Translations under genes and position numbers: made by a program
Notes under the pieces: model-generated
What the model was told of the DNA's origin: nothing
Database searches by the model: none
What the model saw: the letters and a program-made list of their open reading frames with translations, nothing else
Shown here: piece by piece, positions 17,113 through 58,681 of the stretch
How positions within the stretch are numbered: the first letter of the stretch is position 1
Layout of the letters: every line of letters starts with the position of its first letter
Assembly: GCF_039555535.1 (NCBI RefSeq)
Contig: NZ_CP154630.1
Coordinates: 4,663,001-4,727,000 of the forward strand
Direction of reading: 5' to 3'
Source of the DNA: Stenotrophomonas maltophilia
Lineage (GTDB): Bacteria > Pseudomonadota > Gammaproteobacteria > Xanthomonadales > Xanthomonadaceae
DNA length: 64,000 bases

Positions 17113-17142
17113 CCGCGTGGGCACCGATTGCAGGGACACCGG

Positions 17143-17700
17143 ATGTCAGTGCCGCTTCCACCCCCCTCGTTGCAGCCTTCGCCCTACCACGCGTGGATTC
17201 GGCCGCTGGTCCAGGCCTCCTTCTGGCTGTCCGCACTGCTGACCGGCTACTTCGTACTGCAGGGGCTGCTGGTATGGCCACTGCACGACGTTCCACTCTG
17301 GCAACTGCTGGCCGGTGAAGTACAGCATCGGCAGATGCACAGCCTGACCTGGCTGCTGGCACACCCTGTGGGTGCCTCGATGATCGCCGCACTGCTCTGC
17401 CTGCTCTCGGCCGTGGCCAGCCGGGGCCTGCTGCGGGAGCGCCGCTGGGGCCTGTGGAGCTTCGTGGTGATGCTGCTGTTGAGCGCGCTGGCCAATTTCG
17501 CGATCACCTGGTGGCTGGACGTGTTCATGCGCGACATGATCGTGCTGCTTGCCGACGATCCGGACATGCAGCAATCGCTGCAGCCGCGGCGCTGGATGAT
17601 GACCTTGACCCTGCTCGGCACGTCGGTCCTGTTCCTCGGCCTGCAGGGCTGGCTGGCCTGGCGCCTGCTGCGGCAGGATATCCGCTCGCGTTTCCACTGA
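17143..17700 (+). CDS. Four-helix membrane protein of unknown function
   Basis: A 185-residue protein with about four membrane helices (roughly residues 25-45, 75-92, 105-122 and 155-172) and no catalytic motif I recognise. A charged loop with MRDMIVLLADDPDMQQSLQ lies between helices three and four. It begins 31 bases after the Nudix gene and ends 35 bases before the first of the cysteine-rich secreted proteins, so it may be co-transcribed with them. Function unknown. Confidence 0.8.
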   Translation: MSVPLPPPSLQPSPYHAWIRPLVQASFWLSALLTGYFVLQGLLVWPLHDVPLWQLLAGEVQHRQMHSLTWLLAHPVGASMIAALLCLLSAVASRGLLRERRWGLWSFVVMLLLSALANFAITWWLDVFMRDMIVLLADDPDMQQSLQPRRWMMTLTLLGTSVLFLGLQGWLAWRLLRQDIRSRFH

Positions 17701-17735: not shown

Positions 17736-18857
17736 ATGCGCTTGCTGGCTCTTCTCCCTGCACTACTGATGTTCGCCGCACTGCCTGTAGCCGCCGACGC
17801 GTTGCACTGCGGCGAGTACCGCAGTGCCGATGGCGGCATGGCGCTGGTGTTCACCACCCCCAGCACCGGCTACCGCCACAACGACGTCAGCGAGCCGCAG
17901 CCGCTGTGGGTTGATCGCAGTGCGGCGCAGACGCGCCTGGTCATGCTCGACGATGGCGTGGCAGAGCCGATCCGGATCAGTGCAGACGGGCAACGCATCA
18001 AAGACGATGTGCCGTTGGTCTACACCCTGCGCCAGCCCCGCACCTGCGCCGCCGAGCCCAGGGCGATTGCCGGCAGCTGCCGTGCCGCTGGCAGCCACTG
18101 CATCGCGCAGCTGCCCACCGCTTCACCGGGCCAGGCCCAGCGCGCCTGCAGCGAAGGCGTTGGCGCGGGCTGCTCGGCGCTGTTGCGACAACTGCGCGAT
18201 GGCGTAACTGCGGCCGGAAACGATGACACCGGCCCCGCGCGCTTTGAACGCCCGCCCGTCTGCCGCGAACACACACCCGGACATGACCCGCAGGCCTGCG
18301 AGGCGCTGACCCACGATGCGCTGGCTGCCGCCATGCAGCGGGTAAGCGAACGCCTGCAAAGGGAAGACGAAGACACGCTGGATCCGCCGCTGCCGGCCAC
18401 TGCACGCGAACGTCTGCAGCAGCTGTGCCTGCAGCACCGTGGTGGCCGCTTCTGCGTGGAAGCGGCCGAACAGCAGTTGAACGCACTGGAGCCTGCGTTG
18501 GCGGTGCAGGCCCTGCAGGTGGTCTGCGATGCTGGGCGCGTCAGCGCCTGCGAACGTGTCGCACCGCTGCGCGATCTCCGCGCCGAGCTGCGCCTGGTGC
18601 CGGCCCAGCAGGTGCCCTGCGGTCGCTATCAGGCCGATGGAGGCGTGATCGACATGCTCGACTTCGGCGATGGCACGCGTGGCCGCTTGCATGATGGCGC
18701 CATCCACCTGCAGCAGAACGGTGAACCCCTTGTCCTGCGCCAGCTCGGCAATGGCGACCTGCTCGGCATGGATGCGCAGACGGGATATCAGCGTTACCAG
18801 CCGGTGCCCGGCACGGCACAATGCACACCCCCGCGCGAGGGCCGCGGTTCGCCGTAG
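17736..18857 (+). CDS. Secreted cysteine-rich protein, family member 1 of 4
   Basis: A 373-residue protein with a signal peptide (LLALLPALLMFAALPVAADA), so it is probably periplasmic or exported. Mature architecture: an N-terminal CGEYRSADGG module; a GSC...C pair; an ACSEGVGAGC helical segment; a second helical pair (LCLQHRGGRFC, then VCDAGRVSAC); and a C-terminal beta module CGRYQADGG...MLDFGDG...NGDLLGMD ending near a last Cys (AQC). The EGV..C spacing recalls Sel1/Hcp-type disulfide-linked helical repeats, but I do not recognise the family as a whole. The AAGGA ribosome site supports the start at 17736. Members 2, 3 and 4 follow on the same strand. Confidence 0.82.
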   Translation: MRLLALLPALLMFAALPVAADALHCGEYRSADGGMALVFTTPSTGYRHNDVSEPQPLWVDRSAAQTRLVMLDDGVAEPIRISADGQRIKDDVPLVYTLRQPRTCAAEPRAIAGSCRAAGSHCIAQLPTASPGQAQRACSEGVGAGCSALLRQLRDGVTAAGNDDTGPARFERPPVCREHTPGHDPQACEALTHDALAAAMQRVSERLQREDEDTLDPPLPATARERLQQLCLQHRGGRFCVEAAEQQLNALEPALAVQALQVVCDAGRVSACERVAPLRDLRAELRLVPAQQVPCGRYQADGGVIDMLDFGDGTRGRLHDGAIHLQQNGEPLVLRQLGNGDLLGMDAQTGYQRYQPVPGTAQCTPPREGRGSP

Positions 18858-18894
18858 CGCCTGGAGCTTCCCGTTCGATCGTCAAGGAGACGAC

Positions 18895-20511
18895 ATGCAT
18901 TCACCCGCACCGCGCCGCCGATGGCTGGCCTGGGCGCTGCTGCTGGCCACGCCGATGGCCGCCGCACAGTCACCGCAATGCGGCCTGTTCAAGGCCGATG
19001 AAGGCAGCGGTACGTTGCGCATCAGCTCGCCGAACCGCGGCGAGCAGAAGCATTTCGGCAGTGCACCGACGCCGGTCGCCTTCCAGCAGATCGACGGCAA
19101 GCTGCAGCTGGTGAACCTGGAATACGGCCTGCCCAGCGCGCTGCAGGTGCGCGATCGTGGCCGGACGGTCGAGGTCGATGGCACGGTCTACATCCTGCAG
19201 GCCTCCGCACAGTGCGCCGCAACCGCCGCGCCGGCTGAAGGCAGCTGCCTGGCCGATGCGGCGGCGTGCCTGGACAACCGTCGCGAAGCGGACCCGGCCG
19301 CTCTGGAAGCGGCGTGCCGGGAGGGCGTGCCCGGCATGTGCCTGCAACTGGCTGATCGTTGGCACGAGGAGGCCATGCCTACGGTCGAGGCCGATCCCGC
19401 TCTGGCAAAGGCGGCGCTTGACGCCGCCTTGTCCGGCATCAAGCTCCCCGCCGCCTGTGACGACGGTGGCTTCGAACAGGGAACCCCGGCGTGTGCCGCC
19501 GCACTCGAGGCCGCCCCCGCAGTGCAGGAGCAGCTGGTCAAGGCGGCGATGACGGCAGCCATGACCGAAGCCGTGGTGACGATGACAGCGCCGACCGCGC
19601 CGGTGATCATTCCGGCCGAGCGGCGCCAGCAGTTGTTGCAGCTGTGCCGCGAGGTATCCCATGGCGGCTTCTGCACCCGCGTGGCTGAACTGTCCTGGGA
19701 GGCAGGAGACCACTTGCAGGCGGTGCAGGCCCTGGCTGCGGCCTGCACACCCGGCAACGACACCGCCAGCTGCGAACGCCTGCCTGCGCTGCAGGCGGTG
19801 GGTGCATCGTTGCAACCGCAGCCGGCAACGGCCCTGCCCTGTGGCAACTACCGGGCCGACGGCGGCCTGATGGACACGCTGGACTTCGGTGACAACGGCC
19901 TGGTCGGCGTTGGCTGGAGCAGCCATCTTCGCGCGCGCGTCGAAGCGGGCGACATCCGCATCCGCCACGACAGGGATGGCGACTTCGTGCTGCGCCCGCT
20001 GCCAGGCGGCCAGTTGCTGGGCATGGACAGTTGGACCCGCTTCCAGGTGTTCACCCCCACCGGGGAGGGTCCGACCCGCTGCAGCGCACCGAAGCGGTAC
20101 ACGGTGCTGCCACTGCCGCAGGATTGCCCGCTGGCGCTGGCCAACGAGGACGGTGCCGAAGCCTGCTGTGCGCAGGGCAAGCTGCAGGGCTGCAACATTC
20201 TCGGCAACCGTCTTGCGCTGTCCGGGCACTGGCTGCAGGCCGCAGAGCACTACACCACGGTCTGCCGCGCCGGTGTCCGCGAGGGTTGCGAGAATCTGGT
20301 CACCGCACAGGGCAATGGTGCGGACGTGGACGCGCGTCGCATCCTGGAACAGCTGTGCAAGGCCGACCGCAGCGGCCTGCATGTGGCCTGCGACGTACTC
20401 GGAACGCAGAACTGGGAGCTGATCACGCTGGGCGGCGCCCTGCAGAAGTCGGTTGACGAGACGGCGGTGGACGACACTCCGGCACCGCGCAACTCCAACC
20501 GCAAGCGCTGA
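18895..20511 (+). CDS. Secreted cysteine-rich protein, family member 2 of 4, with Sel1/Hcp-like C-terminal extension
   Basis: A 538-residue protein with a signal peptide (WALLLATPMAAA). It repeats the plan of member 1: N-terminal QCGLFKADEG; GSCL...C; ACREGVPGMC; LCREVSHGGFC; AACTPGNDTASC; then LPCGNYRADGG, LDFGD and GGQLLGMD. Unlike its relatives it carries about 130 extra residues at the C-terminus with tandem cysteine-paired helices (CCAQGKLQGC, VCRAGVREGC, LCKADRSGLHVAC), closely like the Sel1/Hcp fold. It starts 37 bases after member 1, with AAGGAG before the ATG. Such repeats bind proteins or peptides in other families; the role here is unknown. Confidence 0.82.
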   Translation: MHSPAPRRRWLAWALLLATPMAAAQSPQCGLFKADEGSGTLRISSPNRGEQKHFGSAPTPVAFQQIDGKLQLVNLEYGLPSALQVRDRGRTVEVDGTVYILQASAQCAATAAPAEGSCLADAAACLDNRREADPAALEAACREGVPGMCLQLADRWHEEAMPTVEADPALAKAALDAALSGIKLPAACDDGGFEQGTPACAAALEAAPAVQEQLVKAAMTAAMTEAVVTMTAPTAPVIIPAERRQQLLQLCREVSHGGFCTRVAELSWEAGDHLQAVQALAAACTPGNDTASCERLPALQAVGASLQPQPATALPCGNYRADGGLMDTLDFGDNGLVGVGWSSHLRARVEAGDIRIRHDRDGDFVLRPLPGGQLLGMDSWTRFQVFTPTGEGPTRCSAPKRYTVLPLPQDCPLALANEDGAEACCAQGKLQGCNILGNRLALSGHWLQAAEHYTTVCRAGVREGCENLVTAQGNGADVDARRILEQLCKADRSGLHVACDVLGTQNWELITLGGALQKSVDETAVDDTPAPRNSNRKR

Positions 20512-20727
20512 GCCGGCCAGGGCCTGTCCGCAGCTTCGGGCGGGCCCTGATTGTCGTGATCGACACACCTCGGGCGGGTTGTTCCCACCAGCGTGCAAGG
20601 GTTTCCGACGGAAATCACTGCTGCGTCCGAGCGGCTCCCTATCATGGATTTCACTGGAACTGGCCGGCATGCCCAGGTCATCGCCCAATGCGGGCTCCAG
20701 TATCTCCACTCATGCTGGGAAGGCGAA

Positions 20728-21909
20728 ATGCCGCTAGATGCTCCGCGCTTGCTTGCCTGGTCGCCCGTGACCGGTGCCCTTCTGCTGTTCCTTTCCTTCC
20801 CAACCTTGGCAACCGGGGTCGCGTGTGGCGTCTTCAGTGACGAGTACGGAAGCTCGAAGCTTGTTGTCGAGGCACCGGATAGAGGACATGCAATCTCCCA
20901 CGATGGAAGTCATTCCCGATTCGCGCTGCAACAATCCGGGGACGACATGATCATCATCAACCTCAGCACCGGCTATGCCCGCTCCGTGGGTGCAGATCAG
21001 AGCGGACAGGCTCTTCACGACGATGGAACGCACTACTCGCTGATCGAACCGTCGCAGTGCTCGGCCGCACTCAGGCATCCCGCAGACAGCTGTCTCGCAG
21101 ATCCCAAGCAATGCGTGGACATGCGGCATTCCATGGAAACCACCGCTCTTGAGAATGCATGTGCGGAAGGCGTGCCCTACATGTGCATGGCATTGCCGGA
21201 GAAGTACATCGAGCATCTGATCGATACCGGCACCATTGCTCCGCCGGGGGAACTGGCCACCAGAATGCGGGCGACGCTGGAGAGGCAGCTGGCCGCGATG
21301 CCGCTGCCCGCCGAGTGCCTGGATCCCGACAGCACTACCTCGGGGCCAGCGTGTCTGGCTCAGCTCGAGGAAGAACCCGAGCTGTTGAGTTCATTCAGGA
21401 ACGCGATTGTCGCCGCTTCTTTGGGGCTGCATGCAGCCACTGTGGCCACCGCCACCCTTCCCAAGGATCACAGGGAAACGTTGCATGACTTCTGCACGAA
21501 GACGCCTGATGGTGCGTTCTGCCACAAAGTTGCCGATCTGCATGCTTCGGCAGGCGACCTTGGACGGGCAACGGAGGCCCTGGAACTGGCATGCACCGGT
21601 GGTCGGAGCCTCGACTGCGCATTGCTGGAACCACTTCGGGGACTGGGCCCGGACCTGCAGCCAGCCAAGGGCGTGGAGCTTCCGCAAGGAACGTTCGTCT
21701 CTTCGGGCGGCATCATAAGCTCCCTGACCTTCACTGAAGACGGCAGTGTCTCCGCGCCGTTCGGCCAACTGCAGGCCCGGCTGGAAAATGACCGCATCCA
21801 TCTCAAGCATGCAAGGGTTGGAGAGCTGATCCTCCAGCCGCTGCTCAACGGAGATCTGCTCGGCATCGGGCAGCACGTTGGATTCGACTACTTCAGGGCG
21901 ACCGAGTAG
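20728..21909 (+). CDS. Secreted cysteine-rich protein, family member 3 of 4 (divergent, lower GC)
   Basis: A 393-residue protein whose N-terminus [16 protein letters not shown] precedes a hydrophobic signal segment ending near ATG/VACG. The frame is open upstream to 20593, but the ATG at 20728 has a GGAAGG site and gives a sensible signal peptide. The family blocks are present ([57 protein letters not shown]). The C-terminal module has LPQGTF instead of LPCG and lacks the terminal Cys, so one apparent disulfide is lost as a pair. Base composition is lower than in members 1, 2 and 4 (for example 33 of 60 bases G or C at 20881-20940). Confidence 0.78.
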
Positions 21910-21983
21910 GAGGGGCTGATGGCCACGTCTCCAAGGGACGGGGCCTTCCGGCGGTGCGTGGCCGTTGCGGTAAAGTACGCGCC

Positions 21984-22880
21984 ATGAACGAATTCGAGCG
22001 CGTGCGCGCCTACCTCACCGACCTGCAGGACCGCATCTGTGCGGCGATAGAGGCCGCCGATGGCCAGGCCCGCTTCCAGGAAGACCTGTGGCAGCGTGCC
22101 GAGGGCGGTGGTGGGCGCACCCGTGTGCTGCGCGACGGCGTGGTGTTCGAGCAGGCCGGTATCGGCTTTTCCGATGTGTCCGGCAGCCGCCTGCCGCCGT
22201 CGGCCTCGGCCAACCGCCCGGAACTGGCCGGCGCCTCCTGGCGCGCCACCGGCGTGTCGCTGGTGTTCCACCCGCTCAACCCCTACGTGCCGACCACCCA
22301 TGCCAACGTGCGCTTCTTCCAGGCGCAGCGCGACGGTGAAGTGGTGGCCAGCTGGTTCGGCGGCGGCTTCGACCTGACCCCGTTCTATCCGTTCGACGAG
22401 GACGTGCAGCACTGGCACCGGGTCGCACGCGATCTGTGCGCGCCGTTCGGCGACGAACGCTATGCCGCGCACAAGCGCTGGTGTGATGAGTACTTCTTCC
22501 TGCGCCACCGCAATGAAACACGTGGCGTCGGCGGGCTGTTCTTCGACGACCTGCACGGCGACTTCGAACGCGATTTCGATTACCTGCGGGCGGTCGGTGA
22601 TGGCTTCCTCGATGCCTACCTGCCGATCGTGCAGCAGCGCAAGGACACCGCCCATGGCGAGCGCGAGCGCGAGTTCCAGCTGTACCGCCGCGGCCGCTAT
22701 GTGGAGTTCAACCTGGTGTACGACCGCGGCACGCTGTTCGGCCTGCAGAGCGGTGGCCGCAGCGAGAGCATCCTGATGAGCCTGCCGCCGCGGGTGCGCT
22801 GGGAATACGGCTTCACCCCGGAAGCGGGCAGCGCCGAGGCGCGCCTGGCCGACTACCTGGTGCCGCGCGACTGGCTCTGA
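21984..22880 (+). CDS. hemF: Oxygen-dependent coproporphyrinogen III oxidase
   Basis: A 298-residue enzyme of haem synthesis converting coproporphyrinogen III to protoporphyrinogen IX with oxygen. Typical blocks are present: [68 protein letters not shown], and the C-terminal [20 protein letters not shown]. The length matches the family. It acts in the cytosol. It interrupts the set of four secreted cysteine-rich genes, sitting between members 3 and 4 on the same strand, which probably reflects insertion history rather than shared function. Confidence 0.97.
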
Positions 22881-22974
22881 AGTTCCGGTGCCACGGATGA
22901 CCGTGGCGCCTCCGTTGCCTGTGGTGCGCCCTGCACCGGACAGGCCCTGTTCCACCTCCTTCAAGGACGAACCA

Positions 22975-24138
22975 ATGTCTGCTGCTGTTTTCCTTCGCCC
23001 CCGCGCTGCGGGCTGGCGTTCCCTGCTGTTGCTGGCCCTGGTCTCGGCCAGCCTGCCGGCTGCCGCGCAGTCGATGGCCTGTGGCACCTACAAGGACAGC
23101 AGCGGCAACACCACGCTGACCCTCGAGAGTGAAGGCCACGGCTCCCTGTCCGGCCCCTACCAGGCCACCGAGAACCTGCGCATCGCCCGCCAGGAGGACG
23201 TGCTCGGTACCGGCAACCTGTCCACCGGCCAGCTGGAGAACTGGTACTTCTCGGACAACGACCGCACGATCAGCACGCCCTATCGCGAGTTCACCCGTGA
23301 GCGCGCCGCCGCCTGCAAGGCGATGCCAGAGCCCGTCGAAGACGGTTGCGTGATGAACACCTCCGAGTGCCTGGAGGCGCTGCCGGAGGCCGCACCCGTG
23401 AAACTGCACGCCTGGTGTGCCGAGGGCGTGGGCGCAGCCTGCATGCGGTTGCTGGAGACCTACCAGGAACACGCCAACGCAGCGGCACCGAAAGTGACGG
23501 ACCCGCCGATGCCTGAGATCTGCAAGGAGGAATCACCTTCCTTCGACGCCGAAGGCTGCATGGCGGCAGCCAGGAAGGTCGCCTCGCAGATGGCAGGGGA
23601 GGCAATGCTGGGCCTGCGGCATTCGGTCGATGCGCCCTTGCCGCCGGTGCAGCTGGATGAGCTGGCGGCACTCTGCCGCGAACAACACGGCGAGACCTTC
23701 TGTGAAGCGGCGGCCGAGTCGCTGTGGAGCGGCGGGCGCCTGCAGCAGGCCCGCGAGGCATTGCAGCTGGCCTGCGCACAGCGCGCGGATGCGCCGTCCT
23801 GCGGACCGGCCAAGGACCTCGCTGTTGTTGCCGGTGCAACCGCAGCGGCACTCGAACCGATCGCCGCCACCGCCCTGCCCTGCGGCAGCTTTGTCGCCGA
23901 ACGCAGCGTGCTGTCGCAGCTGCGCTTCCTCGATGGCGGCATCGTGGAAGCCGGTGGCGAGGACGTGCGCCTGCGCGCGAGCCTGCGCGACGGCCAGATC
24001 GTCCTGCATCGCGATGTCGGCAGTGACTTCGTTCTGCAGCTGCTGCAGAACGGCAATCTGGTGGGCGTCGACAACGGCAACCGCTTCGCCTACTACGAGC
24101 GCAAGGCGACTGCGGGCAACGTCCGCTGCACTCCCTGA
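22975..24138 (+). CDS. Secreted cysteine-rich protein, family member 4 of 4
   Basis: A 387-residue protein with a signal peptide (SLLLLALVSASLPAAAQS) followed at once by MACGTYKDSSG. The family blocks appear in order: GCVMNTSEC; WCAEGVGAAC; LCREQHGETFC; ACAQRADAPSC; LPCGSF; QNGNLVGVD; and a terminal Cys (VRCTP). It begins 94 bases after hemF with an AAGGA ribosome site, like members 1 and 2. GC content is high, as in members 1 and 2. Function unknown; probably a periplasmic disulfide-bonded protein. Confidence 0.82.
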   Translation: MSAAVFLRPRAAGWRSLLLLALVSASLPAAAQSMACGTYKDSSGNTTLTLESEGHGSLSGPYQATENLRIARQEDVLGTGNLSTGQLENWYFSDNDRTISTPYREFTRERAAACKAMPEPVEDGCVMNTSECLEALPEAAPVKLHAWCAEGVGAACMRLLETYQEHANAAAPKVTDPPMPEICKEESPSFDAEGCMAAARKVASQMAGEAMLGLRHSVDAPLPPVQLDELAALCREQHGETFCEAAAESLWSGGRLQQAREALQLACAQRADAPSCGPAKDLAVVAGATAAALEPIAATALPCGSFVAERSVLSQLRFLDGGIVEAGGEDVRLRASLRDGQIVLHRDVGSDFVLQLLQNGNLVGVDNGNRFAYYERKATAGNVRCTP

Positions 24139-25065: not shown

Positions 25066-27840
25066 TCAGTGCGCTTCGTCCCAGTTGTTGCCGATGCCGG
25101 TATCGACCACCAGCGGCACCCGCAGTTTGGCCGCTTGCGACATGCGCTCGACCACCTGCAAACGCAACTCCTCGACGAAACTGCTTTCGGTTTCGAACAC
25201 CAGTTCATCGTGTACCTGCAGGATCATCCGCGCCGGTGCACCGCTGTCACGCAGCCACTGGTCCACGTCCACCATCGCGCGCTTGATGATATCGGCGGCG
25301 GTGCCCTGCATCGGCGCGTTGATCGCAGCACGCTCGGCACCGGCGCGCAGGCCCTGGTTACGTGCATGAATGTCGTTCAGGTACAGTCGGCGGCCGAACA
25401 GGGTCTCTACATAGCCCTGGTCGCGGGCCTGCTGGCGCATCCGCTCCATGAAGTCGCGCACGCCCGGGTAGCGGCTGAAGTACAGCGCCACGTAGTCCTG
25501 CGCCTGGCCCCGGTCGATGCCCAGGTTGCGGGCCAGGCCGAAGGCGCTCATGCCGTACATCAGGCCAAAGTTGATCGCCTTGGCAGCGCGGCGCTCGTTC
25601 GGGGTCACCTCTTCCAGCGCACGCCCGAACACCTCGGCGGCGGTGGCACGGTGGACGTCGGCGCCCTGCTCGAAGGCACGCACCAGGCCCGGGTCCTCGG
25701 ACAGGTGGGCCATGATCCGCAGCTCGATCTGCGAATAGTCGGCGGCCAGCAGCTGGAAGCCCTCCGGGGCGATGAACGCGCGGCGGATGCGGCGGCCATC
25801 TTCGGTGCGGATCGGGATGTTCTGCAGGTTGGGGTCCGACGAGGACAGGCGGCCGGTGGCGGCACCGGACTGGTGGTAGCTGGTGTGCACGCGGCCAGTG
25901 TCGGGGTTGACCATCTCCGGCAGCTTGTCGGTGTAGGTGCTGCGCAGCTTGGCCAGGCCGCGGTAGTCGAGGATTACCCGCGGCAGCTCGTGCTGGTCAG
26001 CAATCGCCTCCAGTGCCTCTTCATTGGTGCTGGGCTGGCCCTTCGGGGTCTTCACCACCGCCGGCAGCTTCAACTCATCGAACAGCACCGCCTGCAGCTG
26101 CTTGGGCGAATCCAGGTTGAAGCTGCGCCCAGCCAGTTCGGTGGCCTTCTGCTGCGCGGCCAGCATGCGCGAGGACAGGTCCTGGCTCTGCCGGCGCAGT
26201 TCGTCGGTGTCGATGCGCACGCCGTTGGCTTCGATCGTGGTCAGCACCGGCACCAGCGGCATCTCGATGTCGCGGTACACGCTGTCCAGCGCTGGCTCGG
26301 CCAGCAGCTGCGGCTGCAGCGCGTGGTGCAGGCGCAGGGTGATGTCGGCGTCCTCGGCGGCGTAGCGGCTGGCTTCGTCGATGCCCACCTGCGAGAACGG
26401 AATCTGCTTGGCGCCCTTGCCGGCCACGTCCTCGAACTTGATGGTGCTGTAGCCCAGGTAGCGCAGGGCCAGCGAATCCATGTCGTGGCGGGTGGCGGTG
26501 GAATTGAGCACGAAGCTCTCCAGCATCGTGTCGTCATGGTAGCCCTGTACGTCCACGCCATGGCGGCGCAGCACGTGGAGGTCGTACTTGCCGTGCTGGC
26601 CCAGCTTCTTCTTCGCCGGGTCCTGCAGCACCGGGCGCAGGGCATCGAGCACCTGCTGGAGCGGCAGCTGGGCCGGCGCCCCCGGGTAATCGTGGCCGAC
26701 CGGAATGTAGGCGGCCTTGCCCGGCTCGACCGCCAGGCTGACGCCGACCAGGCGCGCGCGCATCGCGTCCAGCGCATCGGTTTCGGTATCGAAGCTGATC
26801 AGCTCGGCCTGCTGCAGGCGCTCCACCCAGGCCTGCAGCTGCCCGGGGGTCGACACCGTCTCGTATTCACCCGGCTCGGACAGCGCAGGATCCAGCGCGC
26901 CAGCGGCTGGCACCTCGGCGCTGCCACGGGCGAAGCCGGCGGCGGTGCCGCGCAGGCTCGGGGTGGCTTCGCTGGCCACTGCCGGTGCCGGCAGCGGTGC
27001 ACCCAGTTCCTTCAGCGCCTGGGTGAAGCCGTAACGCGTATACAGCTCGGTCAGCTCCGGTACGTCCTGCTCGCGCAGGGCCAGCGTGGTCGGGCTGGCG
27101 TCCAGCGCCACGTCGGTGCGGATGGTCACCAGCTCGCGGTTCAGCGGCAGCCGTTCCAGTGCAGCGCGCAGGTTCTCGCCGATCTTGCCCTTCATGGTCG
27201 GCGCGGCCGCCATCACGCCGTCCAGGTGCTGGTACTCGGCCAGCCACTTGGCGGCGGTCTTCGGCCCGCACTTCTCCACGCCCGGCACGTTGTCGACCGC
27301 GTCGCCCATCAGCGCCAGCAGGTCGATGATCTGGTCGGCGCGCACGCCGAACTTCTCCATCACCGCCGCGTCCGAATCCATGCGGCTGCCGGTCATGGTG
27401 TTGACCAGCTCGATGCCCGGGCGCACCAGCTGGGCAAAGTCCTTGTCGCCGGTGGAAATGGTCACCTTCAGGTCCTGCGCCAGGCCCTGCAGGGCCAGCG
27501 TACCGATCACATCGTCGGCTTCCACGCCGGGAATGCGCAGGATGCTGATGCCCAGCGCCTCGACGATGCGGCACATCGGCTCGACCTGGCTGCGCAGCTC
27601 ATCGGGCATCGGTGGGCGGTTGGCCTTGTACTGGTCGTACAGGTCGTCACGGAAGGTCTTGCCGGGCGCATCGACCACGAACGCTACGTAGGCCGGGCGC
27701 TCCTTCAGCGTCGAGCGCAGCATGTTGACCACGCCGAACAGGGCGCCGGTGGGTTCGCCCTGTGCATTGGACAGGGGCGGCAGCGCGTGGAACGCGCGGT
27801 ACAGGTAACTGGACCCGTCGATCAGGACTAATCTGCTCAT
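25066..27840 (-). CDS. polA: DNA polymerase I
   Basis: A 924-residue polymerase with all three domains. The 5'-3' exonuclease (residues 1 to about 290) starts LVLIDGSSYLYRAFHALPPL and has GVEADDVIG. The 3'-5' exonuclease (about 325-520) keeps the DTETDALD metal site and DYHD-like residues (GYHDDTMLE). The polymerase domain has AADYSQIELRIMAHLS (motif A), the O-helix RRAAKAINFGLMYG (motif B) and QVHDELVFE (motif C). It does gap filling, Okazaki maturation and repair. All catalytic residues seem intact. The sX13-like RNA lies directly downstream, and a divergent lipoprotein gene upstream. Confidence 0.97.
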   Translation of the reverse strand: MSRLVLIDGSSYLYRAFHALPPLSNAQGEPTGALFGVVNMLRSTLKERPAYVAFVVDAPGKTFRDDLYDQYKANRPPMPDELRSQVEPMCRIVEALGISILRIPGVEADDVIGTLALQGLAQDLKVTISTGDKDFAQLVRPGIELVNTMTGSRMDSDAAVMEKFGVRADQIIDLLALMGDAVDNVPGVEKCGPKTAAKWLAEYQHLDGVMAAAPTMKGKIGENLRAALERLPLNRELVTIRTDVALDASPTTLALREQDVPELTELYTRYGFTQALKELGAPLPAPAVASEATPSLRGTAAGFARGSAEVPAAGALDPALSEPGEYETVSTPGQLQAWVERLQQAELISFDTETDALDAMRARLVGVSLAVEPGKAAYIPVGHDYPGAPAQLPLQQVLDALRPVLQDPAKKKLGQHGKYDLHVLRRHGVDVQGYHDDTMLESFVLNSTATRHDMDSLALRYLGYSTIKFEDVAGKGAKQIPFSQVGIDEASRYAAEDADITLRLHHALQPQLLAEPALDSVYRDIEMPLVPVLTTIEANGVRIDTDELRRQSQDLSSRMLAAQQKATELAGRSFNLDSPKQLQAVLFDELKLPAVVKTPKGQPSTNEEALEAIADQHELPRVILDYRGLAKLRSTYTDKLPEMVNPDTGRVHTSYHQSGAATGRLSSSDPNLQNIPIRTEDGRRIRRAFIAPEGFQLLAADYSQIELRIMAHLSEDPGLVRAFEQGADVHRATAAEVFGRALEEVTPNERRAAKAINFGLMYGMSAFGLARNLGIDRGQAQDYVALYFSRYPGVRDFMERMRQQARDQGYVETLFGRRLYLNDIHARNQGLRAGAERAAINAPMQGTAADIIKRAMVDVDQWLRDSGAPARMILQVHDELVFETESSFVEELRLQVVERMSQAAKLRVPLVVDTGIGNNWDEAH

Positions 27841-55814: not shown

Positions 55815-56357
55815 CTACGCCTTCTTCTGGTCGGTAGGTTCTGCCGGGCATGACTGAGGTTCTGGCAACTCAAGCGGGATTTTGATCGGGTACTCGGGGC
55901 TGCTGTACGCGTAACAGGAGGTGGTGACCTGAATCTCATCGCAGGGCAGGAAATGCACGGTGATGCCGCAGACGTCCTGGCCGGTGTAGTCCGGGACGGG
56001 GACGACTTTGCTTTGCCTGCGCTTCTGCGCCAGGATTTTTTCTCTCCAAGCCAGAACTTTGGACCAATCTTCTGTCCCAGGAAAATCTATCGAGCTTCCT
56101 GCACCCGTTTCCCAGTCAACCCGCACCGTCAGCCCCGGATACCAGCGCTCTGGTGCACCGTAGCAGCAGCCTCCACCCCCGCCTTGATATGGGCCAATGA
56201 TGTCAACGGCTGAACGACCATCGACACTGAACCGGTTGATCGCCCAGTGGGTGTGGTTGACGCCATAGATCGCACTCGCATCCACAGCGTAGGCAGACAA
56301 GAGCAGAGGTGGGCCAGCAAGAAATGCCAGCGCCACGCGCTTCAAAGCAAACATCAT
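55815..56357 (-). CDS. DUF3304-domain secreted protein
   Basis: A 180-residue exported protein. The signal peptide starts MMFALKRVALAFLAG; the mature part has NHTHWAINRFSVDGRSAVDI, then GGGGGCCYG and WYPGLTVRVDWE, the marks of DUF3304. As I recall, these proteins often sit beside type VI secretion phospholipase effectors and may be immunity or accessory proteins; no effector is present here. The ATG at 56357 follows a GGAG site; an ATG at 56384 would add nine residues. GC content is lower than in most of the window. Function not established. Confidence 0.78.
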   Translation of the reverse strand: MMFALKRVALAFLAGPPLLLSAYAVDASAIYGVNHTHWAINRFSVDGRSAVDIIGPYQGGGGGCCYGAPERWYPGLTVRVDWETGAGSSIDFPGTEDWSKVLAWREKILAQKRRQSKVVPVPDYTGQDVCGITVHFLPCDEIQVTTSCYAYSSPEYPIKIPLELPEPQSCPAEPTDQKKA

Positions 56358-56408
56358 TGAAACTCCATAATGTATAGCCCTCATTTCTTGTCCGAGGGCA
56401 CCAATGCC

Positions 56409-57026
56409 CTACTCAGGCGCAAACTCCCGCCTCCAGTCACGCAGCATCTCGACCTCCCGCGCGATCAGTGCTGATTCTGCTGCGGGCGCGTCGGAGAACT
56501 GTTCGCCCGACACTGGAATCCTCTTCAGGGGGACATTCCGATCACCTACGAAGAAGTGGGGTGTAAAGCAGTAAGGCTCATCCCCCGATTCCGTGGGCTG
56601 CTTCACCAACGTCGCGAACACGGCATTCGTCGGCACGCTCGGTTTGGCGGCTGAACACCACGGATGCGACGAGACGATGTCCTGAATCCGCGCACCAGCC
56701 CGACGTAACTCCGTGGGACTGAAAACCTTGCCGAGAGAGACGCGATGTACCCGATAGGTGTCGACTTCCGGTTGCGCCTCGACAAGCCATCCTGAGTTGT
56801 CATGCGATGTGCAACTGCAATCGCAGGTCACCAGCGTTGCGTTTGGTACGGCGTTGTTCCAGGACAGCCAGACCTTCTCTGTCTTGCAAAGTTGTTTGAT
56901 CACGGGCGATCTTTCCTCGACTCGCAGGCTTCCCTGCGGTGTCGCACCGTCGGCAGCTACATGCGTTTCAGCGCCAGCCGCTGACGCTGAGACAGTGATG
57001 ATCGCTGCCAGAAGTACCCTGCGCAT
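56409..57026 (-). CDS. Secreted Cys-containing protein of unknown function
   Basis: A 205-residue protein with a clean signal peptide (VLLAAIITVSASAAGAET). Cysteine groups TCDCSC and single Cys near LCKTEK, PWCSAAK and PYCFTP suggest disulfides in the periplasm. I do not recognise a domain. It precedes the DUF3304 gene by 51 bases on the same strand, so the pair may be an operon. Composition is lower in GC than the core genes. Confidence 0.72.
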   Translation of the reverse strand: MRRVLLAAIITVSASAAGAETHVAADGATPQGSLRVEERSPVIKQLCKTEKVWLSWNNAVPNATLVTCDCSCTSHDNSGWLVEAQPEVDTYRVHRVSLGKVFSPTELRRAGARIQDIVSSHPWCSAAKPSVPTNAVFATLVKQPTESGDEPYCFTPHFFVGDRNVPLKRIPVSGEQFSDAPAAESALIAREVEMLRDWRREFAPE

Positions 57027-57269
57027 GTCCCGATCCGATTCGATGAATCACACATGCTATGGGGCGTACTGACGAACAAAGGGAGTTCGGGCCATTTGCG
57101 TCAGAAGTTGGCAGTTCTTGCTAGAAGCCCCCGTCTTCCGTGTGGCTGGATACGTCATCCCGCACCGGTACGATCAAATACTGGGCTGATATGTAGATTC
57201 GTACTTGTTTCATTGCCGCACGACGTCAGCGCGCTGAAGGTAGTGTTCCACCTCCAATAACATGCGTAG

Positions 57270-57992
57270 ATGCGACGCGTATTTGCATTTCTGACCGGAT
57301 GTCTTCTCATGGCCGGAACTGCCGATGCCAGCGAGCAGTCCATTGATGTCGCGGAAGTCGGCCTGAACGCCGAGCACGAACACATCCCGTTGGTAGGCGA
57401 CACCCTGGCTGCCGTCGTCGGCGATCTCGAGGGCGATGCCACACCCGGTGCCAGTATTGGCAGGGTGCTCGAGATACTTGCAGAGAGACTCGAACGTACG
57501 ACCTGCTATCTACAGCCCCCCGTCAAAGACAGCTCACGTTCGTCCGGCGTGACCTGCGGCGGACCCGATGTAGACAGCGTCTTCCCGTACTACACCGCCT
57601 TGCGGCAGGCGAAGACACCAGCAGAGCACGAGAGTCGGGGCCGTCGCTTCCTGGACGCCTATACGGCGTTGCTCAGGGATGCGCCGGATGTCGCCCTCAC
57701 GCGACCAAACGAAGATGAGGCGGCAGATGGGTTGTTACATGTGCTCTTCCCGTTCAAGGCCTGGGACGAGAAGCTGAACGTTCCACGCCATGACGTGTAC
57801 TTCCCGTTTGTTCCTGTGTGCAACCTCGTTGTCGCTCGCGCTGCGCGCTGCCCGGAAGCCGACCAGTTGCGCAGAAAGATCGAGCAGGCAGGCGATGAGA
57901 GTGAACAGCGCTTGTTGTGCATCAAGGAGTTCTCGAGGCGACAGCTGGCGGAGGAAGGTGAATGTCCCGAAGTGACCAACACGAGCCCCTGA
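57270..57992 (+). CDS. Secreted protein of unknown function
   Basis: A 240-residue protein with a signal peptide (VFAFLTGCLLMAGTADAS). The Cys in TGCLL does not make a convincing lipobox. The mature part has a few cysteines (TCYLQPP, VTCGG, VCNLV, RCPEAD, LCIKEF, ECPE), which suggests periplasmic disulfides. No known domain. It is transcribed away from the preceding pair; the 243 bases between (57027-57269) are AT-richer and probably hold two promoters. The stop shares a base with the next start. Confidence 0.7.
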   Translation: MRRVFAFLTGCLLMAGTADASEQSIDVAEVGLNAEHEHIPLVGDTLAAVVGDLEGDATPGASIGRVLEILAERLERTTCYLQPPVKDSSRSSGVTCGGPDVDSVFPYYTALRQAKTPAEHESRGRRFLDAYTALLRDAPDVALTRPNEDEAADGLLHVLFPFKAWDEKLNVPRHDVYFPFVPVCNLVVARAARCPEADQLRRKIEQAGDESEQRLLCIKEFSRRQLAEEGECPEVTNTSP

Positions 57993-58681
57993 TGCCCATC
58001 GCATGCTCCCGCCTGAAGATGACGGTTTCCTGGAGAATGAACTTGTTGAGCTTGATCTTCACTCTGCTTGCAACACTGGCTTCAACAGAGGATACGAAGG
58101 CTGGCAGCGGGAGATGGGTGCACGCTGGCAGCAACATCACACTGCGATACGACGGCGAGGAGAGCGGTCGCTACCGGAACCTGTCGGTGATGAAGCAGGG
58201 CAAACTGGTGCGCCGCATGGCACTCGGCAAGCGCTCGTACTCTCTGTTCGAGTACGACCCCGATCCGACGACGTCCCCTGACGGTCGGTATGTGCTTGTC
58301 ACTGACTTGGAATCCGGGGAGGTTGGCTTGACGGATGGGCGCGGTTCTCTGCATGAAAGGCAGTACTGCGGTTTCATCGACACACAAAGCGGCTGCCTGT
58401 TCGCGCGTCAGACCGGGCAATTCTGTGGAGGGCAGTTCAATGACGCTGGCGCCTGGGTATCTTCGGCGCTTCCAGAGCTGATCCTTGCTGATGGGCGCCC
58501 CACCGCGGAGGACTATGTCTCAGGCCGCCTGAGTCCCTCGGATGCACCCGATGGTTCCCTCGACAATCTGCTTCGCTGCGACCCACCAGGCCCAGGCAAC
58601 AGAGACCACTACGAGAAGCTGATCGATGCGGGGATCTTTAACGTCACTCCCTCGCAGAGAAGGGCGCTGTACGGCGGGTAG
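57992..58681 (+). CDS. Secreted protein of unknown function, coupled to the previous gene
   Basis: A 229-residue protein. The start at 57992 overlaps the previous stop (TGATG); in-frame ATGs at 58019 and 58037 are alternatives. The stretch MNLLSLIFTLLATLAS serves as the signal sequence. The mature part is beta-rich (TLRYDGEESGRYRNLSVMKQ, then a PDGRYVLVTDLESGEVGL segment resembling one propeller blade) with cysteines in QYCGF, SGCLF and QFCGG. I do not recognise the family. It completes the four-gene orphan patch. Confidence 0.68.
   Translation: MPIACSRLKMTVSWRMNLLSLIFTLLATLASTEDTKAGSGRWVHAGSNITLRYDGEESGRYRNLSVMKQGKLVRRMALGKRSYSLFEYDPDPTTSPDGRYVLVTDLESGEVGLTDGRGSLHERQYCGFIDTQSGCLFARQTGQFCGGQFNDAGAWVSSALPELILADGRPTAEDYVSGRLSPSDAPDGSLDNLLRCDPPGPGNRDHYEKLIDAGIFNVTPSQRRALYGG

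Follow-up and report, generated by a model that had tools for sequence, protein, structure and literature searches.

Four paralogous genes, here called A to D, surround hemF in a 64,000-nucleotide stretch of Stenotrophomonas maltophilia DNA (contig NZ_CP154630.1, positions 4,663,001 to 4,727,000; hereafter the window). A–D form one family of proteins that, judging from their N-termini, are exported, and the structure predicted for the longest of them contains two small beta barrels bracketing a helical, cysteine-rich middle, followed by a helical tail. The family and its architecture are new to the libraries searched; the component folds are of known kinds, and we infer the function.

The four genes are on the forward strand. 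Paralog A (17736–18857) encodes 373 amino acids, B (18895–20511) 538, C (20728–21909) 393, and D (22975–24138) 387. The hemF gene for coproporphyrinogen III oxidase (21984–22880; Pfam PF01218 Coprogen_oxidas, E-value 5.6e-126) is located on the same strand between C and D. The initial annotation, made from the letters of the window, had proposed four paralogous genes with hemF among them, and both its coordinates and its lengths were exact. The reading frames are intact, and when A was used as the query against the whole genome, only four places were found: A itself, B (E-value 7.6e-35), D (3.6e-31), and C (3.6e-26). Relative to A, the identity is 33% for B, 27% for C, and 32% for D, and the paralogs overall share 26–33% identity. 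A profile built from the eight barrel modules matched exactly those eight in this genome, and the next best match was no better than an E-value of 0.685. A chance resemblance or a frame artefact is ruled out by the E-values of at most 3.6e-26 between A and the others, the intact frames, and ratios of nonsynonymous to synonymous substitution rates (dN/dS) of 0.22–0.31. The N-termini are signal-peptide-like, with no evident lipobox before the first mature cysteine as read from the sequence, which is consistent with the secretion that had been proposed for A–D. The GC content at third codon positions of C is 0.695 vs. 0.78–0.83 for A, B, and D, and a close relative of C (93% identity) is present in one of fifteen near loci. 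The low value and the rarity of the gene suggest its late arrival or drift.

The AlphaFold2 model of B (mean predicted local distance difference test score 87.6) is composed of four parts. The first predicted eight-stranded barrel (18967–19224, approximately residues 25–110) is probably closed by Cys29 and Cys107. It is followed by the modelled helical middle (19225–19824), which contains cysteines 118, 125, 141, 149, 188, 200, 251, 260, 284, and 293, by the second predicted eight-stranded barrel (19825–20091), probably closed by Cys316 and Cys396, and by a Hcp/Sel1-like C-terminal helical extension (20092–20508). Alignment to the modelled B indicates that A has a signal-peptide-like start, a barrel, a helical middle, and a barrel, and lacks the extension, as does D in this genome; the tail is present only in B here. 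The alignment also confirmed that A–D share the order of sequence blocks given in the initial annotation. The closing LPCGxY and LDFGD module described there holds as far as the order of blocks is concerned, but C has LPQGTF and no last cysteine, and LDFGD occurs only in A and B. The proposed resemblance of the two outer modules, which correspond to the barrels, was borne out by profile–profile comparison (85–87% probability, E-values 4–6e-6), in which they align from the same CGx[YF] motif, whereas the control pairing of the first barrel with the tail reached 0.1%.

The resemblance of the middle to Sel1/Hcp proteins stood in one respect, the pattern of helices and cysteines, but the homology to Hcp proteins sits in the tail of B, which matches Helicobacter HcpC (PDB 1ouv) with an E-value of 4.1e-6. 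The helical middle alone gave no match to Hcp proteins, and its profile comparison with the tail was weak (9.6%), the helix and cysteine pattern being common to both. It also weakly matches 8ss1, named as a serine protease (E-value 0.023). The structural matches of the barrels include the lipocalin-like and avidin-like proteins SP_0198, 5cyb, YedD, and bradavidin. Lipocalin and calycin barrels carry a GxW signature in the first strand; in A–D, its place is taken by Gx[YF] after a cysteine, which is a glutamine in the second barrel of C. Three natural members from three different loci lack the columns of the second barrel.

The numbers of cysteines are even in all four proteins: fourteen in A, twenty-two in B, twelve in C, which has lost those of the second barrel, and fourteen in D. 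Their conservation was assessed in 140 different family sequences kept of 144, many of them close kin, and is given in the numbering of B. Cysteines 141, 149, 251, 260, 284, and 293 are present in all 140. Wherever both columns are filled, the pair 29/107 stays together, and 118/125 is split in two sequences. The pair 316/396 is present in 130 sequences, split in four, and lost as a whole in the three rows of the C lineage. The pair 188/200 is missing together with its helices from short variants of A (320–336 amino acids) and from three members labelled g7 that were read. In the model of B, the pairs 141/149, 251/260, 284/293, 424–425/433, 457/465, and 488/499 each have one side at a helix end and the other in the following helix. 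The tether of Hcp proteins is a disulfide linking a helix end to the next helix (PMC3851747), and the six predicted pairs thus follow the Hcp-type pattern, which 118/125 does not fit. We infer that A–D themselves contain disulfides.

None of the four proteins is recognized by Pfam or NCBIfam at E-values up to 1, and PADLOC gave no match at the same limit. The Pfam family Sel1 (PF08238) matches none of A–D at E-values up to 1; it occurs at eleven places in this genome, all outside the A–D locus. Scanned singly against Pfam at E-values up to 0.1, the 54 members of the family alignment A2 gave scattered matches to five families, four of them to TPR_2 (best E-value 0.0057), two to Defensin_propep, and one to each of three further families (best E-value 0.0041 among these others). 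Sel1 is not among the five. A profile search of the PDB sequences with the A2 alignment gave no match. In the source annotations, the members are called hypothetical protein, Sel1 repeat family (protein), or Beta-lactamase, and the latter two names presumably stem from automatic annotation. No description of the family was found in open-licence literature with terms for Sel1, periplasm, cysteine-rich proteins, hemF, and Xanthomonas loci. The initial annotation had known no family with this plan, and the profile-library search likewise placed none of A–D in a described one.

The family was matched in 62 of 91 Stenotrophomonas genomes, of which 28 have one copy, twelve two, nineteen three, and three four; the remaining 29 have none. 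In four genomes, fragments in the same frame were counted as one copy. At most twenty candidates per genome were scored in the genus and at most six in the bacterial family; the separate protein searches scored only candidates sharing most words with the query. For 20 of the 29 negative genomes, the surroundings of hemF were searched for overlooked divergent members, and hmmsearch with filters off, applied to frames of at least 80 amino acids, found none at E-values up to 1. At six junctions in negative genomes, the preceding membrane-protein gene reaches to within about 80 bases of the hemF start. In the family sample, 45 of the 297 genomes, belonging to 10 of the 54 genera, have a match. The order sample gave matches in 21 of 299 genomes, twenty of them from the same family and one (G863) a weak piece holding a stop. 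The class sample gave 4 of 369, three from the same genus, including the genome analysed here, and the fourth (G565) a weak match of 56 positions with no family frame in its locus. The search for members outside the bacterial family thus yielded only these two weak pieces, apart from which the matches are confined to Xanthomonadaceae/Lysobacteraceae. Carriage of the genes as cargo of known mobile elements was rejected, since a tblastn search with B (E-value 1e-5) found no match in either the plasmid records (72,556) or the phage records (50,697).

In 60 of the 62 positive Stenotrophomonas genomes, a copy lies no more than 6 kb from hemF and on the same strand. In one exception the copy is elsewhere, and in the other the match and hemF are on different contigs, with hemF at a contig end. 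Among 39 named loci, which partly overlap the set of 91 genomes, hemF follows downstream in 37; one locus ends before hemF, and in another (L056) the gene is elsewhere. Of 19 further loci that have family genes, eight (three of them g7) contain hemF within the stretch and eleven do not. The genes are at hemF in Xanthomonas chitinilytica, four Pseudoxanthomonas loci, and one Lysobacter metagenome-assembled genome, and the family is also present in Vulcaniibacterium. In L110, a locus encoding a protein identical with one from Lysobacter sp. cf310, the family gene follows secB and gpsA as identified by Pfam; a rhodanese gene, secB, gpsA, and the family gene succeed one another there on the same strand (L110:1506-5363). 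Two more loci (L112 and L114) resemble it by the starts of their open reading frames, and a third (L113) shows secB.

The sequence TANNNT is found 5–9 bases before 58 of the 62 hemF starts that read ATG among the 65 loci read, vs. 1.5% in shuffled upstream sequences, and before 46 of 46 polA starts vs. 1.0% in shuffles. The controls gave 0 of 12 for D and 1 of 19 for Usp. In the window, the box is within 21960–21986 at the hemF start, and polA starts near 27840. The motif suggests that hemF and polA have separate, perhaps leaderless, transcripts. Because of this promoter-like box and the Lysobacter copies elsewhere, hemF is likely the address of the family and not its partner, its proximity most likely being a matter of position alone.

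Tandem expansion of the family is real, but the array is of mixed origin. A quick tree, with branches assessed by the Shimodaira–Hasegawa-like approximate likelihood ratio test (SH-aLRT) only, was calculated from 53 rows, taken from the window and from 30 loci selected among the 39 named ones, with rows of up to 300 amino acids left out. B groups with proteins of loci L056, L057, and L073 and with the pair of C proteins (SH-aLRT 96). D groups with single-copy proteins of S. rhizophila, S. bentonitica, S. nematodicola, and relatives (SH-aLRT 96, drawn open). B and D therefore belong to separate older lineages, whereas A and C have long branches (1.12 and 1.28) and an unsure place. The D ortholog keeps the extension in 9 of the 14 near loci that have D (505–531 amino acids as read) and lacks it in five, including this genome; the four D proteins without a tail that entered the tree cluster together (SH-aLRT 98). 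Since A and C are also without the tail, it was probably lost more than once, and the existence of tail-less forms indicates that it is dispensable. In S. geniculata ATCC 19374, the A gene (L045:8647-9960) is broken by a stop into two pieces.

The dN/dS ratios were calculated among 16 near loci, of which 12 were used for A, 16 for B, 2 for C, and 14 for D, after rows with a stop, less than 85% coverage, or identity below the set limit had been dropped. The mean values are 0.31 for A, 0.22 for B, and 0.28 for D; C, with a single pair, gives 0.32. For comparison, hemF, polA, and the S9 peptidase reach 0.05–0.10, Nudix and DUF421 0.17, and the membrane protein before A 0.42. The synonymous divergence of A, B, and D is 0.34–0.40 vs. 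0.15–0.24 for hemF, polA, and the S9 peptidase, with 0.37 for DUF421 and 0.56 for the membrane protein, and the closest strain varies from gene to gene. Purifying selection acts on A, B, and D, although they evolve faster than hemF or polA. We read the pattern as recombination combined with relaxed purifying selection rather than as proven positive selection, and mean ratios of 0.22–0.31 for A, B, and D do not bear out the earlier idea of diversification of binding specificity. The small membrane protein encoded before A (17128–17700) is 43–95% identical in 15 near loci, in which the S9 peptidase and hemF are 96–99% identical, and it looks like a case of allelic replacement. Elsewhere in the window, the GC content dips to 0.583 at 56001–58000, where an exported-looking frame without a Pfam match (57270–57992) is followed by a second frame (57962–58681).

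By analogy with LptY, an eight-stranded lipocalin-like partner that stabilizes LptD (PMC12644819), and with Sel1-like repeat (SLR) proteins, which are thought to be interaction scaffolds (PMC3851747), A–D could plausibly be soluble periplasmic protein-binding scaffolds of the inhibitor or assembly-factor type, the reading that we favour, with some reserve. The Sec signal peptide would be removed and the cysteines would be oxidized in the periplasm. The rigid helical scaffold and the faces of the barrels may then bind another envelope protein or peptide, and A–D may act as inhibitors, stabilizers, or assembly helpers of periplasmic or outer-membrane proteins. The hemF locus is a site where copies of the genes come and go. 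We speculate further, and only tentatively, that the family provides Xanthomonadaceae-specific periplasmic adaptors, in which two lipocalin-like barrels bracketing a disulfide-rich Hcp-type solenoid form a modular clamp, and that copies, the tail, and single helix pairs have been added and removed at one chromosomal address, enabling different envelope proteins to be bound or protected. Two small barrels joined to a helical solenoid rich in disulfides would represent a new scaffold for binding proteins in the periplasm. The anatomy, boundary, and history of an unnamed protein family found in Stenotrophomonas, Xanthomonas, Pseudoxanthomonas, and Lysobacter are now given, and natural genomes with zero to four copies make its role testable.

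The barrels might instead work in the manner of lipocalins and bind a molecule that is hydrophobic or resembles a porphyrin, with the helices organizing or docking the barrels. The lipocalin-like and avidin-like structural matches speak for such small-ligand carriers, and the hemF address would suit a porphyrin, but hemF has its own promoter-like box, some Lysobacter copies are elsewhere, and CGx[YF] replaces the lipocalin GxW, so that we regard this function as rather unlikely.

The initial annotation had named immunity as one example of what the expansion might diversify. It is improbable that A–D are periplasmic immunity or anti-toxin proteins, multiplied for breadth against the toxins of rival bacteria. 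Their presence or absence at one place in zero to four copies and the raised nonsynonymous and synonymous divergence would fit such a role. The XVIPCD domains of effectors of the Xanthomonadales-like type IV secretion system (X-T4SS) occur in 57 of the 91 genomes, and their number correlates weakly with the family copy number (rank correlation rho 0.27, p 0.010, ignoring kinship). However, 38 genomes contain both the family and the domain, 24 the family only, 19 the domain only, and 10 neither; this absence of association (Fisher p 0.82) and the lack of XVIPCD domains in the window speak against the role; the test covered X-T4SS only, not the type VI secretion system or other toxins. The nearest of the thirteen XVIPCD places in this genome is about 0.18 Mb away, and no effector-like Pfam domain was found among the ten window proteins scanned. 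Four of the 22 genomes with at least three copies have no XVIPCD domain, and X-T4SS immunity as a necessary link was therefore rejected.

Secretion beyond the outer membrane and action on other cells, of the kind reported of some secreted Sel1-type proteins, appears scarcely probable. The Hcp relationship of the tail points in this direction, and a secreted Campylobacter protein figures in the Sel1/Hcp literature (PMC12904459), but the family is also present in Pseudoxanthomonas, Vulcaniibacterium, and Lysobacter, and nothing was found in this analysis pointing to a host. A functional tie to hemF as partners in heme biosynthesis is very improbable and was rejected despite the linkage in 60 of 62 genomes and 37 of 39 partly overlapping loci, since HemF is cytoplasmic whereas A–D look exported, hemF is present in 90 of the 91 genomes, 29 of the 91 having no family match, the eleven further loci without hemF nearby and the secB–gpsA address in Lysobacter break the linkage, hemF has its own promoter-like box, and the often conserved S9 peptidase and polA neighbours mean that general synteny can explain the linkage.

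Among the known systems, the X-Tfi immunity proteins of the killing X-T4SS of Xanthomonadaceae resemble A–D in their periplasmic location, predicted for A–D, and in belonging to the same bacterial family. They differ in that XAC2610, the X-Tfi that has been studied, carries a lipobox, adopts a fold like a beta-propeller, and is paired with a cognate effector (PMC10933484), none of which was found for A–D. Lipocalin lipoproteins of the SP_0198 type (3ge2, 5cyb) and TP0435 (4u3q) were solved as single small domains, and their likeness to the barrels of A–D is one of fold only. LptY (formerly YedD; 4hwm, 9fz5) is a lipoprotein with one barrel, and no sequence relation to A–D was seen. The Helicobacter Hcp proteins (HcpC, 1ouv; HcpB, 1klx), built from disulfide-bridged Sel1-like repeats, are the homologues of the tail of B; A, C, and D are without this tail, and all four proteins, which have no match to Pfam Sel1, add two beta barrels.
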